64,000 nucleotides of DNA. Source: Tepidamorphaceae bacterium. GTDB lineage: Bacteria; Pseudomonadota; Alphaproteobacteria; Rhizobiales; Tepidamorphaceae. A program made the position numbers and the translations under genes. Shown here one piece after another: positions 50,078-56,336 of this stretch. The stretch lies in assembly GCA_028279445.1 (NCBI GenBank), contig JANQNT010000003.1, forward strand, positions 1 through 64,000, written 5' to 3'. Below the pieces are notes generated by a model that ran no database searches, was not told the origin of the DNA, and was given only the letters and a program-made list of their open reading frames with translations. Each line of letters starts with the position of its first letter. The first letter of the stretch is position 1.

Positions 50078-51268
50078 ATGTCCGAGCACGACGTCCGCAA
50101 CTTCACCATCAATTTCGGGCCGCAGCATCCGGCGGCCCACGGTGTGCTGCGTCTGGTGCTCGAACTCGACGGCGAAGTGGTGGAGCGGGTCGATCCGCAT
50201 ATCGGGCTGCTGCATCGCGGCACCGAGAAGCTGATCGAGTACAAGACCTATCTGCAGGCGGTGCCCTATTTCGACCGGCTCGACTACGTCGCACCGATGA
50301 ACCAGGAACACGCCTTCGCGCTGGCCGCCGAAAAGCTGCTCGATATCGAGGTGCCGATCCGCGGTCAGCTTATCCGCGTGCTGTATTCGGAGATCGGTCG
50401 GCTGTTGTCGCATCTGCTCAATGTCACCACCCAGGCGATGGATGTGGGCGCGCTGACGCCGCCGCTGTGGGGCTTTGAGGAACGCGAGAAGCTGATGATC
50501 TTCTACGAGCGGGCCTCGGGCGCGCGCATGCATTCGGCCTACTTCCGGCCCGGCGGCGTGCATCAGGATTTGCCCGACCAGCTCATCGCCGACATTCACG
50601 ACTTCTGCGACCCGTTCCTGAAGGTCTGCGATGACATCGAGGGGCTGCTGACCGACAACCGCATCTTCAAGCAGCGCAATGTGGATATCGCCGTGGTCAA
50701 GCTGGATGATGCCTGGAAATGGGGCTTTTCCGGCGTCATGGTGCGCGGCTCCGGCGCGCCGTGGGACCTGCGCAAGAGCCAGCCCTACGAGTGCTATTCC
50801 GAACTCGACTTCGACATCCCCGTGGGCAAGAACGGCGACTGCTACGACCGCTACCTGATCCGCATGGAGGAAATGCGCCAGTCCGTCTCCATCATGCGGC
50901 AGTGCATCGAGCGGCTGTCGTCGGCGGAGGGCGGCGGGCCGGTCGCCTCCACCGACGGCAAGATCGTGCCGCCCAAGCGCGGCGAGATGAAACGCTCGAT
51001 GGAAGCCTTGATTCACCACTTCAAGCTATACACGGAAGGCTATCACGTGCCGGAAGGCGAGGTGTATGCCGCCGTAGAGGCGCCAAAGGGGGAATTCGGC
51101 GTCTATCTGGTCTCTGACGGTTCAAACAAACCCTATCGCTGCAAGATCCGCGCGCCCGGTTTTGCGCACCTGCAGGCGATGGATTTCCTGTGCAAGGGCC
51201 ACATGCTCGCGGATGTTTCCGCGATCCTTGGCTCGCTCGACATCGTATTTGGAGAAGTTGATCGATGA
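50078..51268 (+). CDS. nuoD: NADH-quinone oxidoreductase subunit D
   Basis: 49-kDa subunit forming the quinone pocket with NuoB. 396 residues. Motifs are [41 protein letters not shown] and the C-terminal [13 protein letters not shown]-like [15 protein letters not shown] and [13 protein letters not shown]. Start ATG 50078. Its last four bases ATGA overlap the next small gene. Confidence 0.98.
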
Positions 51269-51486
51269 AGGTCTTTCAGTTGGGTTGCCTGTTGGCGACG
51301 GTTGCCGCCGTCATCGCCTCGCTCAGCATCGGGGCGCCGATCTGGGTGACCACGCTGCTGATAATCTCGGTGGTGGTGGTGCAGCTTGCGCTTGAATACC
51401 GCCGTTCCACCCTTGCCGGCGCGGCGGATGACGACATTTCCGTCGAAACGCCGAAGTCGCCGGCCGACAAACCCGCAAACGCCTGA
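51265..51486 (+). CDS. Small two-helix membrane protein of the nuo operon
   Basis: 73 residues, not a standard complex I subunit. It has one hydrophobic helix at about residues 5-22 and a second at about 27-44 ([17 protein letters not shown]), then a polar acidic tail. The ATG at 51265 overlaps the nuoD stop by four bases (ATGA), strong evidence of translation. A small protein at this place occurs in some Rhizobiales; I cannot name a family. It may be an accessory or assembly subunit. Confidence 0.7.
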
Positions 51487-51514: not shown

Positions 51515-52189
51515 ATGGCCGTCCGCAGACTTCATCCAGAGCAGCCTGAGAGCTTCGCCTTCAGCGCGCAGAACCTTGCCTGGGCGAAGCGGGAGATGAA
51601 GAAGTATCCCAAGGGCCGGCAGGCAAGCGCCGTCATTCCGCTGTTGTGGAAGGCGCAGGAGCAGTACGACAACTGGTTGCCGGAACCGGCGATCCGCGCT
51701 GTCGCCGACCTGCTCGACATGCCCTACATCCGGGTGCTGGAGGTCGCGACCTTCTACACCATGTTCCAGCTCGCCCCGGTGGGGCGAAAGGCGCATGTGC
51801 AGGTCTGCGGCACCACGCCGTGCATGCTGCGCGGGGCGGAGGACATCAAGCAGGTGTGCAGGCGACGCATTGCGCAGACTGCGCACGAAGTGTCCGCTGA
51901 CGGCGACTTCTCCTGGGAGGAGGTCGAGTGCCTGGGCGCGTGCGTCAACGCGCCCATGGTGCAGGTCTTCTCGGATACCTACGAGGACCTGACCGCCGAC
52001 AGTTTCGAGGCACTGCTGGATGCGTTCGCACGCGGCGAGCGGCCAGTACCCGGACCGCAGATCGCGCGGACACATGCGGCACCTGCCGGCGGACAGACAA
52101 GTCTGACGGATGTGCCGACCGCGACGAAGCCGGGAAAGAGCCGCGCGGGCACACGCAAAACGCCGAGCAAGGCCTCGAGCAAGGCATGA
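51515..52189 (+). CDS. nuoE: NADH-quinone oxidoreductase subunit E
   Basis: Binds the N1a [2Fe-2S] cluster. 224 residues. The conserved domain ends near residue 165, with ligands in [10 protein letters not shown] (C-x4-C) and [10 protein letters not shown]. The last 60 residues are a low-complexity tail, Ser/Thr/Lys-rich at the very end ([17 protein letters not shown]), absent from E. coli NuoE. ATG 51515 has a weak ribosome site. Confidence 0.96.
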
Positions 52190-52201: not shown

Positions 52202-53509
52202 ATGCTGGCCGACAAGGACCGTATCTTCACCAATCTCTACGGGCAGGGCGATAGCGGCCTGAAGGGCGCCAAGGCGCGTGGCGCATGGCGGGGTACGGCG
52301 GGCTTCATCAAGAAGGGCCAGGACTGGATCATCGACCAGGTCAAGACGTCGGGTCTGCGCGGGCGCGGCGGCGCGGGCTTTCCGACCGGGCTGAAATGGT
52401 CGTTCATGCCCAGGGACGTCGGCGAGCGGCCGCACTATCTGGTGGTCAATGCCGATGAATCGGAACCCGGCACCTGCAAGGACCGGGAGATCATGCGCCA
52501 CGACCCGCATCTGCTGGTCGAGGGCTGCCTGATCGCTGGCTTCGCCATGCGCGCCCATGTCGGCTACATCTATGTGCGCGGCGAATTCATCCGCGAGCGC
52601 GAGCGCTTGCAGGCGGCGATCGACGAGGCCTACGAGGCGGGTCTACTCGGCAAGAACGCGGCGAAGTCGGGCTGGGACTTCGATCTCTACGTGCATCACG
52701 GCGCCGGCGCCTATATCTGCGGCGAGGAGACCGCGTTGCTGGAAAGCCTGGAGGGCAAGAAGGGCCAGCCGCGCCTGAAACCGCCGTTCCCGGCCAATGT
52801 CGGGCTGTACGGCTGCCCGACGACGGTCAACAACGTGGAATCGATCGCTGTCGTGCCGGAGATCCTGCGCCGCGGCGCGGAGTGGTTCGCGGGCTTTGGC
52901 CGCCCCAACAACCATGGAACAAAGCTGTTCTGCATCTCCGGCCACGTCGAGCGGCCCTGCACGGTGGAAGAAGCAATGAGCGTTCCGCTGCGCGAGTTGC
53001 TGGACAAGCACTGCGGCGGGGTGCGCGGCGGCTGGGACAATCTGCTGGCGGTGATCCCCGGTGGTTCGTCGGTGCCGTGCCTGCCGGCCGATCATTGCGA
53101 CGACCTGCCGATGGACTTCGATGCGCTGCGCGACCTCAAGTCGGGCCTGGGCACCGCGGCGGTGATCGTCATGGACAAATCGACCGATATCGTGCGCGCC
53201 ATCGCGCGCATTTCCTACTTCTACAAGCATGAGAGCTGTGGCCAGTGCACGCCGTGCCGGGAAGGAACCGGCTGGATGTGGCGGGTGCTGGAACGCATGG
53301 CCCGTGGAGAAGCGCACAAGCGGGAAATCGATATGCTCCTGGAGGTGACCCACCAGGTCGAGGGGCATACCATCTGTGCGCTCGGAGATGCCGCGGCCTG
53401 GCCGGTTCAGGGCCTCATTCGCCATTTCCGTCACGAGATCGAGCGCCGGATCGACAGCTACACGGCGAACGCCAGCGCTGATGACGTCAGGCTGGTGGCG
53501 GCCGAGTGA
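52202..53509 (+). CDS. nuoF: NADH-quinone oxidoreductase subunit F
   Basis: NADH-binding flavoprotein with FMN and the N3 [4Fe-4S] cluster. 435 residues. Motifs are [50 protein letters not shown] and [14 protein letters not shown], with a further Cys in [18 protein letters not shown] 52202 lies 12 bases after nuoE. Confidence 0.98.
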
Positions 53510-53538
53510 CGGTCAATCGGACGAGGAGGTCTGAGACC

Positions 53539-54225
53539 ATGTTTGGATGGAATTTCCAGGAACTTCCGGGTCGGCATTCCGCTATTGCCATGAACGAGGA
53601 GACGATCGCGAAGTCGGCGAGCATCGCGGCTCTGCCGATCACCGCAACACTCGCGACCGGCGCGATGATGGCGGCCGGTGGCACGGCGATGCTGTTCGGT
53701 ATGCAGGCGATGTGGCTGAAGGCGCTTGAGGAAAGCGCCGAGCGCATGAAGAGCGGCGCTGCGTCCAGCAAGACGGCCGGCACGCCGGCGCCAAAGCCCG
53801 CGCCGATTGATGCGGCCGAGGCGAAAGCAGCGACGGCGCCGACCGAGGCCGTGGCGCTGGAGAGGGTCAACACGCAAGCCGAAGAAGGTGTTGCGGATGC
53901 GGAGGCAAGTCCCGCTGCACCGGCACCGGCACCGGCTAAGCCGGTCTCATCGGTTCAACCGGTCTCGCCCGGTGCGGTTGGGACCCGGCCAGCCGGGTTT
54001 GAAGCGCCGCGCGGCAAGCCTGACGACCTGAAGCGGATTTCCGGCATCGGCGCCAGGATCGAGGTCGTCCTCAACGATCTGGGTATCTACCACTTCGACC
54101 AGATCGCAGCATGGTCGGCGGCGGAAATCGCCTGGGTCGACGACTATCTGAAGTTCAAGGGCCGCATCGCGCGCGATAGCTGGGTGGCGCAGGCGCGGCG
54201 GCTGAATAAAAGCGCCGCGGGGTAA
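53539..54225 (+). CDS. Complex I operon protein with membrane segment and C-terminal helix-hairpin-helix-like domain
   Basis: 228 residues, not a canonical Nuo subunit. A hydrophobic segment lies at about residues 28-60 (LPITATLATGAMMAAGGTAMLFGMQAMWL), followed by an Ala/Pro/Glu-rich linker to about 155. Residues 162-222 form a compact domain (PDDLKRISGIGARIEVVLNDLGIYHFDQIAAWS, then WVDDYLKFKGRIARDSWVAQAR) that matches the helix-3-turn-helix fold of COG3743, also fused to ribosomal protein L21 in Rhizobiales. GAGGAGG sits 9 bases before ATG 53539. No nuclease role should be assumed. The same domain is a C-terminal part of NuoE in some relatives, I believe. Confidence 0.75.
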   Translation: MFGWNFQELPGRHSAIAMNEETIAKSASIAALPITATLATGAMMAAGGTAMLFGMQAMWLKALEESAERMKSGAASSKTAGTPAPKPAPIDAAEAKAATAPTEAVALERVNTQAEEGVADAEASPAAPAPAPAKPVSSVQPVSPGAVGTRPAGFEAPRGKPDDLKRISGIGARIEVVLNDLGIYHFDQIAAWSAAEIAWVDDYLKFKGRIARDSWVAQARRLNKSAAG

Positions 54226-54242: not shown

Positions 54243-56336
54243 ATGGCGAAGCTGGTTGTTGACGGCATCGAGGTCGAGGTCGCGGCGGATATGACGCTGC
54301 TGCAGGCCTGCGAGGAAGCGGGCGCGGAAATTCCGCGCTTCTGCTACCACGACCGGCTGTCGATCGCCGGCAATTGCCGCATGTGTCTGGTGGAGGTGAA
54401 GGGCGCGCCGAAGCCCGTCGCTTCCTGCGCGCAAAGCGTGCGCGACCTGCGCCCCGGCCCCAATGGCGAACCGCCGGAAGTCCTGACCAAGAGCGGTTTG
54501 GTGAAGAAGGCGCGCGAAGGGGTGATGGAGTTCCTGTTGATCAACCACCCGCTCGACTGCCCGATCTGCGATCAGGGCGGGGAGTGCGACCTGCAGGACC
54601 AGGCCATGGCCTACGGCGTCGACGCCTCGCGGTTCGCCGAGAACAAGCGCGCCGTGGAGGACAAGTATATCGGTCCGCTGGTCAAGACCATCATGACCCG
54701 CTGCATCCACTGCACCCGCTGCGTGCGCTTCGTCACCGAGGTCGGCGGCGTCTCCGATCTCGGCGCCACCGGCCGCGGCGAGGACATGGAGATCACCACC
54801 TATCTGGAAAGCGCCATGCGCTCGGAGATGCAGGGCAACGTCATCGATCTGTGCCCGGTGGGCGCGCTGACGTCCCGTCCATACGCGTTTTCGGCGCGGC
54901 CATGGGAACTCACCAAGACCGAATCCATCGATGTCATGGATGCGCTCGGCTCCAACATCCGGGTCGATGCGCGCGGCCGCGAGGTGATGCGCATCATGCC
55001 GCGCGTCAACGACGCGGTGAACGAGGAGTGGATTTCCGACAAGACCCGCTTCATCTGGGACGGGCTGAAAACGCAGCGGCTCGACAAACCCTATGTGCGG
55101 CTGGGCGGGCGGTTGCAGCCCGCCGACTGGCCGATGGCGTTCGCGACGATCGCGCGCCAGATGGCCAGTGTGGATCCCAAGCGTATCGGTGCGATCGCCG
55201 GCGACCTCGCCGCCTGCGAGGAGATGTTCGCGCTCAAGGACCTGATGACGCGGCTCGGCAGTCCCAACATCGACTGCCGGCAGGACGGCGCGCCGTTCAA
55301 TCCCACCTACGGACGTGCGTCCTATCTGTTCAACGCCGGTATTGCCGGGCTGGAGGATGCCGATGCGATCCTGCTGGTGGGAGCCTATCCGCGCTGGGAT
55401 GCCACCGTGCTCAACGCGCGCATCCGCAAGCTGTGGCTCGCCACCGGGCTGCCCATCGGATTGATCGGGGCGGACAATCCCGACCTGACCTACGACTACG
55501 CCTATCTCGGTGCGGGCGCCGAGACTCTGGGTGAACTCGCGGAGAGCAGGGGTGCGTTCGCCCGTACGCTGAAGCGTGCCAAGCGCCCGGCGATCATCAT
55601 TGGGCCTGCCGCCTGCGCGCGTCCCGACGGGGCCGGCGTGCTGGCCCTCGCGGCACGTCTGGCGGAAGGCTGCGGCGCGGTCAACGATGACTGGAACGGC
55701 TTCAGCGTGCTGCACACGGCCGCTTCGCGGGTCGGCGGGCTCGATCTGGGGCTTGTACCGGGCCGCGGTGGTCTCGATGCGGCGGCAATGGTAAAGCCGG
55801 GGGCGCTCGACGTGCTGTTCCTGCTTGGTGCCGACGAGATCGCGCCGGAGGGCCTGGAGGAGACGTTCATCGTCTATATCGGCACCCATGGCGACCGCGG
55901 GGCGCACGCAGCCGACGTCATCCTGCCGGGTGCCACCTACACCGAGAAGCCGGGCACCTACGTCAACACCGAGGGCCGTGTGCAGATCGCCAGCCGCGCC
56001 AGTTTCCCGCCTGGAGACGCGCGCGAGGACTGGGCCATCCTGCGGGCGCTGTCCGCCGATCTGGACCAGCAATTGCCCTACGATTCGCCGCTGGCGCTGC
56101 GCGCGGCGATGCTCGCGGCGCATCCCCACCTCGGCGACAGCGACGTAACGCCGGTGGAGGATGCATCCGGCGTGGCGACACTTGCCAAGCGTCGCATGAA
56201 GCCGAAGGCGGCGGCTTTCGCGCGCGATGCGGGCAGCTATTATCTCGGCAATCCGATCTGCCGTGCCAGCAAGGTGATGGGCGAGCTTGCCGCGATGTCG
56301 GCGGACGGAGCCGAGGCGACGGGGACCGATGGCTGA
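54243..56336 (+). CDS. nuoG: NADH-quinone oxidoreductase subunit G
   Basis: Largest peripheral subunit. 697 residues. [2Fe-2S] ligands are in [21 protein letters not shown] and ASCAQ. The His/Cys N5 motif is [19 protein letters not shown] and the N4 motif is [10 protein letters not shown] with CPVGAL. The C-terminal half is molybdopterin-oxidoreductase-like ([23 protein letters not shown]) without cofactor ligands. ATG 54243 was chosen because a TTG twelve bases earlier has no advantage; GGGGCAGG precedes it. Confidence 0.97.

Follow-up and report, generated by a model that had tools for sequence, protein, structure and literature searches.

A protein with a predicted disordered arm and a C-terminal HhH domain is encoded between nuoF and nuoG in a Tepidamorphaceae bacterium

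PhaH of Caulobacter is the sole protein for which we found a reported function of the H3TH/HhH domain considered here. The N-terminus of PhaH is said to bind PHB granules, and its C-terminal HhH domain to bind DNA non-specifically (review PMC13052382, citing PMID 37487601), and the protein has been reported to tether PHB granules to the nucleoid in Caulobacter (review PMC13052382). Protein-O of Dinoroseobacter shibae (8yy9 chain O; ABV93056.1) forms a two-helix hairpin, closed by Cys10-Cys59, between the reaction centre (RC) and LH1; its C-terminal domain was unresolved in the structure, its function was reported as unknown, and its gene lies in the nuoE-nuoF gap (PMC12079452). The domain is also carried as a tail by NuoE (PRK12373) and by the ribosomal proteins L21, S2 and L19 (PRK12278, PRK12311); no paper on its presence in NuoE or L21 came up in a literature search. 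In the 64,000-nucleotide stretch of a Tepidamorphaceae genome that was analysed here (the window), we established a gene for such a domain, its location in the nuo operon, the homology and predicted fold of the domain, and the sporadic distribution of the gene among related bacteria.

The gene, designated P0001, extends from 53,539 to 54,225 on the + strand, with an ATG start and a TAA stop, and encodes an accessory protein of 228 aa. Its Shine-Dalgarno sequence, GAGGAGG (53,523-53,529, + strand), lies 9 nt 5' of the ATG. The flanking genes are nuoF (52,202-53,509, + strand; NCBIfam NuoF) and nuoG (54,243-56,336, + strand, ATG start; NCBIfam NuoG), with a gap of 29 bases from the nuoF stop to the ATG of P0001 and a gap of 17 bases from its stop codon to the nuoG start. 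Since these gaps are short, P0001 is almost certainly co-transcribed with nuo. The sequence-only reading had described a 228-residue gene with its own strong Shine-Dalgarno inside the complex I operon, and the frame, the GAGGAGG motif and the co-linear neighbours all bore this out. The codon-position GC of the domain-coding part (0.65/0.46/0.83) resembled that of nuoF, and the orthologues occupying the same slot in other families show that the frame is more than a chance ORF. The upstream nuoE (51,515-52,189, + strand) encodes 224 aa without an H3TH domain and ends in a short Lys/Ser-rich tail at about residues 203-224; the P. denitrificans-type NuoE (239 aa, 8qby_E) could be aligned with it up to residue 202. 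A further ORF, of 73 aa (51,265-51,486, + strand), was observed in the nuoD-nuoE gap; it contains a strongly hydrophobic stretch (KD 2.28), had no family match in Pfam and NCBIfam profile searches, and may encode a small membrane protein belonging to the nuo operon.

The H3TH/HhH domain occupies residues 156-226 (54,004-54,216, + strand), as defined by the NCBIfam C-terminal matches, the domain model and the fold matches. The C-terminus of P0001 matched the NCBIfam NuoE model PRK12373 with an E value of 1.7e-34 (model positions 237-385 of 400), and S2, L21 and PhaH models were also matched, always just in their C-terminal part. A profile search of this region, proposed together with the family assignment, therefore succeeded with NCBIfam, while no Pfam family was found over its cut-off. 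The domain model, built from 50 sequences, was a small helical fold with a pLDDT of 91.6. Its best structural matches, the RadA/Rad51 N-domain, Hel308 and Y-family polymerases (Z up to 7.2), were mostly DNA-handling HhH domains; NusA AR2 was an almost equal match (Z 6.5), the matches overall were middling (Z 5-7), and Foldseek with the domain model gave nothing significant (best E 0.93). Homology to models carrying the COG3743 H3TH/HhH domain of about 65 residues, together with the HhH fold, places P0001 in the family to which it had been assigned from the letters alone.

Four further copies of the domain were found in the window's genome, three of them as tails of L19, L21 and S2 and one in a short protein of contig C16, where it is joined to a clear membrane helix. 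The fusion to L21 named in the earlier reading thus occurs in the same genome, as do fusions to L19 and S2. These proteins share the domain with P0001, but they are ribosomal and not membrane linked. The three tails are encoded on contigs C10, C18 and C4 (loci L003, L004 and L005). At G008:C6:115699-116568, three H3TH repeats were seen in an open frame of 593 aa. NusA AR2 is a protein-binding HhH domain, and the matched structure is its complex with SuhB (PDB 6ib8). The domain of P0001 might likewise bind a partner common to large complexes, those with the NuoE tail, those with the L19, L21 and S2 tails, and RC-LH1, so that P0001 would be a protein-protein docking arm that aids assembly or co-localisation. 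This fits the presence of the domain on three ribosomal tails here and on NuoE in most relatives, the match to the SuhB-bound AR2, and a domain charge that is near neutral to acidic (+2 in P0001 and -1.1 on average in NuoE-fused domains). However, no partner is known, and DNA binding is what has been reported for the domain in PhaH, the sole relative in which its function is described; we regard a docking arm as somewhat unlikely.

Comparison with the PhaH model NF045508 aligned residues 90-223 of P0001 with profile positions 102-232 (E 7.8e-19). P0001 was rejected as a PhaH orthologue, with a score of 68.8 bits against the NCBIfam cut-off of 250; no PhaH above this cut-off was present in the 41 genomes searched, while the Caulobacter control genome passed it. 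Both proteins carry a C-terminal HhH domain of one family behind a linker. They differ in the N-terminus, where no similarity of P0001 to PhaH was detectable, and in that P0001 is encoded in nuo.

A putative membrane or granule anchor, rich in Ala, Gly and Met and marginally hydrophobic in Kyte-Doolittle (KD) and Wimley-White scans with controls, was located at residues 29-60 (53,623-53,718, + strand). The best 19-residue KD mean was 1.50 (residues 29-47), and some orthologues were slightly more hydrophobic (1.74 in Afifella and 1.91 in G287). The Wimley-White octanol sum of -2.7 was within the range of the soluble controls NuoB, NuoE and NuoI (-4.4, -2.9 and -4.9) and far from that of the membrane controls NuoA, NuoH and NuoK (-9 to -20). 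Of the membrane segment claimed in the earlier reading, a hydrophobic stretch remains, but one of marginal strength, and membrane anchoring of the N-terminus is at most plausible. Residues 73-155 (53,755-54,003, + strand) form the Ala/Pro-rich linker that the same reading had described; it is low in complexity and predicted to be disordered (pLDDT mostly below 50). The full-length model had a mean pLDDT of 57 and was uninformative outside the domain; it contained a low-confidence helix at residues 42-72. P0001 has no cysteine.

Taken jointly, anatomy, fold and homology favour a tether whose tip binds nucleic acid, and we tentatively propose, at somewhat less than even confidence, that P0001 is an optional tether of the PhaH kind, produced along with complex I rather than being a core subunit of it. 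Since the gene is in the nuo operon, production of the protein would accompany that of complex I. The weakly hydrophobic stretch near the N-terminus would hold the protein on the cytoplasmic membrane or else on some hydrophobic body, for instance a PHA granule; an Ala/Pro arm of about 85 residues, predicted to be disordered, would follow; and the C-terminal HhH domain may be a non-specific nucleic-acid binder, like its reported counterpart in PhaH, thereby keeping a cargo close to the nucleoid. The proposal draws on the homology of the domain to the C-terminal part of PhaH, on the DNA-handling HhH domains among its best fold matches, and on the succession of anchor, long disordered arm and small folded tip. 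Against it count the near-neutral charge of the domain, unlike that of many DNA binders, which are strongly basic, the near-equal match to NusA AR2, the Foldseek result, the middling Z scores, and an N-terminus unlike that of PhaH.

A phmmer search against the PDB returned two sequences with real similarity, 8yy9_O and 9wqv_a. The first, labelled "Reaction center protein O chain", matched residues 67-223 of P0001 with an E value of 7e-22. The second is labelled "NADH:ubiquinone oxidoreductase 41 kd complex I subunit", a name that probably stems from automatic annotation of a nuo locus; the entry includes a reaction-centre L chain, and therefore both PDB relatives come from reaction-centre preparations. 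Both have, like P0001, a hydrophobic N-terminus, a long Ala/Pro linker and a C-terminal H3TH domain. Protein-O further resembles P0001 in being encoded inside a nuo operon of a phototrophic host: pufL and pufM, the genes of a type-II reaction centre, are present on contig C24 of the window's genome, which made a role of P0001 in RC-LH1 worth considering. On this reading P0001 would belong to the photosynthetic RC-LH1 complex, or help to assemble it, as the counterpart of protein-O. Among the nuoF-nuoG orthologues surveyed, the closest, from families f21 and f28, were mostly from phototrophic genomes. However, protein-O has a Cys-closed two-helix hairpin and occupies the nuoE-nuoF slot, whereas P0001 has one marginal segment, lacks cysteine and occupies the nuoF-nuoG slot; most nuoE-nuoF proteins showed two clear hydrophobic peaks. 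Placement of the P0001 domain in the clade of protein-O and 9wqv_a was rejected (p-AU 0.017), a result of moderate weight for so short a domain.

The distribution of these genes also argued against a photosynthetic role. Among the 134 genomes of the order, each tested for pufLM, the separate nuoF-nuoG copy was present in 4 of 37 phototrophs and in 5 of the 97 remaining genomes (Fisher p 0.26), so five of the nine carriers were non-phototrophic, and independent tree pairs gave no support for an association with pufLM. In 61 Rhodobacteraceae, a protein-O-like gene encoding strong membrane helices occupied the nuoE-nuoF gap of 27 of the 29 phototrophs and of 19 of the 32 non-phototrophs; the raw p value for the hairpin type was 0.003, again with no support from independent tree pairs. 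A link to phototrophy was rejected on both counts, and because 19 of the 32 non-phototrophic Rhodobacteraceae have it, the protein-O family is not specific to photosynthesis. We consider a part in RC-LH1 quite improbable for P0001. In the nuoE-nuoF gap of G298, G301, G302 and G335 (L253, L257, L250 and L255), a second H3TH gene was observed beside the hairpin gene; these second genes mostly lack a membrane helix, and their N-terminus is of the type "MNLAEDIWLRGQAAQ...".

The nuoE-nuoF-nuoG region was read in all 134 genomes. NuoE carried the H3TH domain in 84 of 130 genomes (65%), in agreement with the fusion suggested in the sequence-only reading. Intact separate nuoF-nuoG copies were found in nine of the 134 genomes, belonging to five families. 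The named carriers are a Cohaesibacteraceae MAG and Afifella pfennigii, whose domain is 74-76% identical. Orthologues in the same slot of other families were 40-46% identical overall and 69-74% identical in the domain. Eight of the nine carriers also had the NuoE fusion, the exception being the window's genome, which was likewise the only one with an intact separate copy among the 46 genomes without the fusion; about 45 genomes had neither. It had been suggested that P0001 may be a split or fused accessory module, with genomes having either a fused NuoE or a separate gene. This either-or pattern fails on the counts, since the fusion is kept by eight of nine carriers and both forms are missing from about 45 genomes. 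The related concern that the gene might be missing from the nuo operons of relatives was half confirmed: nearly all of them lack the separate gene, but a fused version is common. The family assignment of the sequence-only reading holds, and its split-module idea does not.

These counts bear on whether P0001 is an accessory subunit of complex I or an assembly factor of its peripheral arm, a separate equivalent of the NuoE tail. The NuoE of PRK12373 shares the domain, the linker and the operon with P0001 and differs in having a 2Fe-2S thioredoxin-like part. The position and co-linearity of the gene inside nuo are consistent with such a role, as is the finding that NuoE bears the domain in 65% of the order but lacks it in the window. 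But the separate copy is rare and mostly coexists with the fusion, unrelated genes occupy the same slot in other families, and the relatives with solved structures sit in reaction-centre complexes rather than in complex I. The P. denitrificans complex I structure contains the extra subunits NDUFS4, NDUFS6, NDUFA12 and PIMT and no protein like P0001 (PMC11522691), a comparison confined to the subunits of the structure. We consider a role in complex I itself unlikely. By eye, the nuoF-nuoG slot appeared to be an accessory hot spot, with unrelated small genes in other families, such as pentapeptide-repeat-like and glyoxalase/VOC-like genes (e.g. L010 2813-3627 on the nuoF strand, L124 and L016).

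In a tree of 54 domains, P0001 grouped with Afifella and G287 (98/84). The next to join were the copies of f21 and of Cohaesibacteraceae (98/76), and every one of these sequences comes from the nuoF-nuoG slot. The Afifella, Cohaesibacteraceae and f21 orthologues share slot and layout with P0001; they differ in that the NuoE fusion is kept wherever nuoE is visible. Topology tests, whose power is limited because the domain is short, did not reject a grouping of P0001 with NuoE from its own family (p-AU 0.21) or with the C16 protein (p-AU 0.28). The tree prefers the nuoF-nuoG copies of other families as relatives, and fission from the local NuoE was not statistically excluded (p-AU 0.21).

The separate gene underwent seven gain/loss changes on the tree. 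Decayed copies were found in three genomes of one family (f28), and in three genomes of f19 (L157, L151 and L149 of G231, G258 and G282) the domain was lost while the hydrophobic N-terminal part and the linker were kept, which suggests that the N-terminal part is useful alone or that the gene is decaying. Frequent gain and loss, decay in one family and domain loss in another support a dispensable accessory. The same patchiness, with the f28 and f19 copies, would also be expected of a passenger without important function that is drifting to loss, but P0001 has kept its frame, its Shine-Dalgarno sequence and the conserved residues of the domain, which is 69-74% identical to the domains of other families, so that a mere passenger seems very unlikely to us.

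For the tether proposed above, a PHA granule is a possible cargo, because all carriers examined have PHA synthase (12 of 12 genomes with an intact or decayed copy, carriers alone being examined), and phaC is present in the window's genome. A broader conjecture, which we hold to be distinctly unlikely, is that one HhH "tag" in Alphaproteobacteria ties large machines to the nucleoid or to each other: complex I via NuoE or nuo-encoded membrane arms, of which P0001 would be one, RC-LH1 via protein-O, ribosomes via L19, L21 and S2, and PHA granules via PhaH.

Across Alphaproteobacteria, complex I, ribosomal proteins, reaction-centre complexes and storage granules all carry this small domain on flexible arms, and a reported function exists for just one of these cases, PhaH. 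The stand-alone version encoded in nuo offers a simple handle on whether the domain binds DNA or protein. Protein-O is a member of a nuo-linked set that many non-photosynthetic bacteria also have, and for this reason its function probably extends beyond light harvesting.
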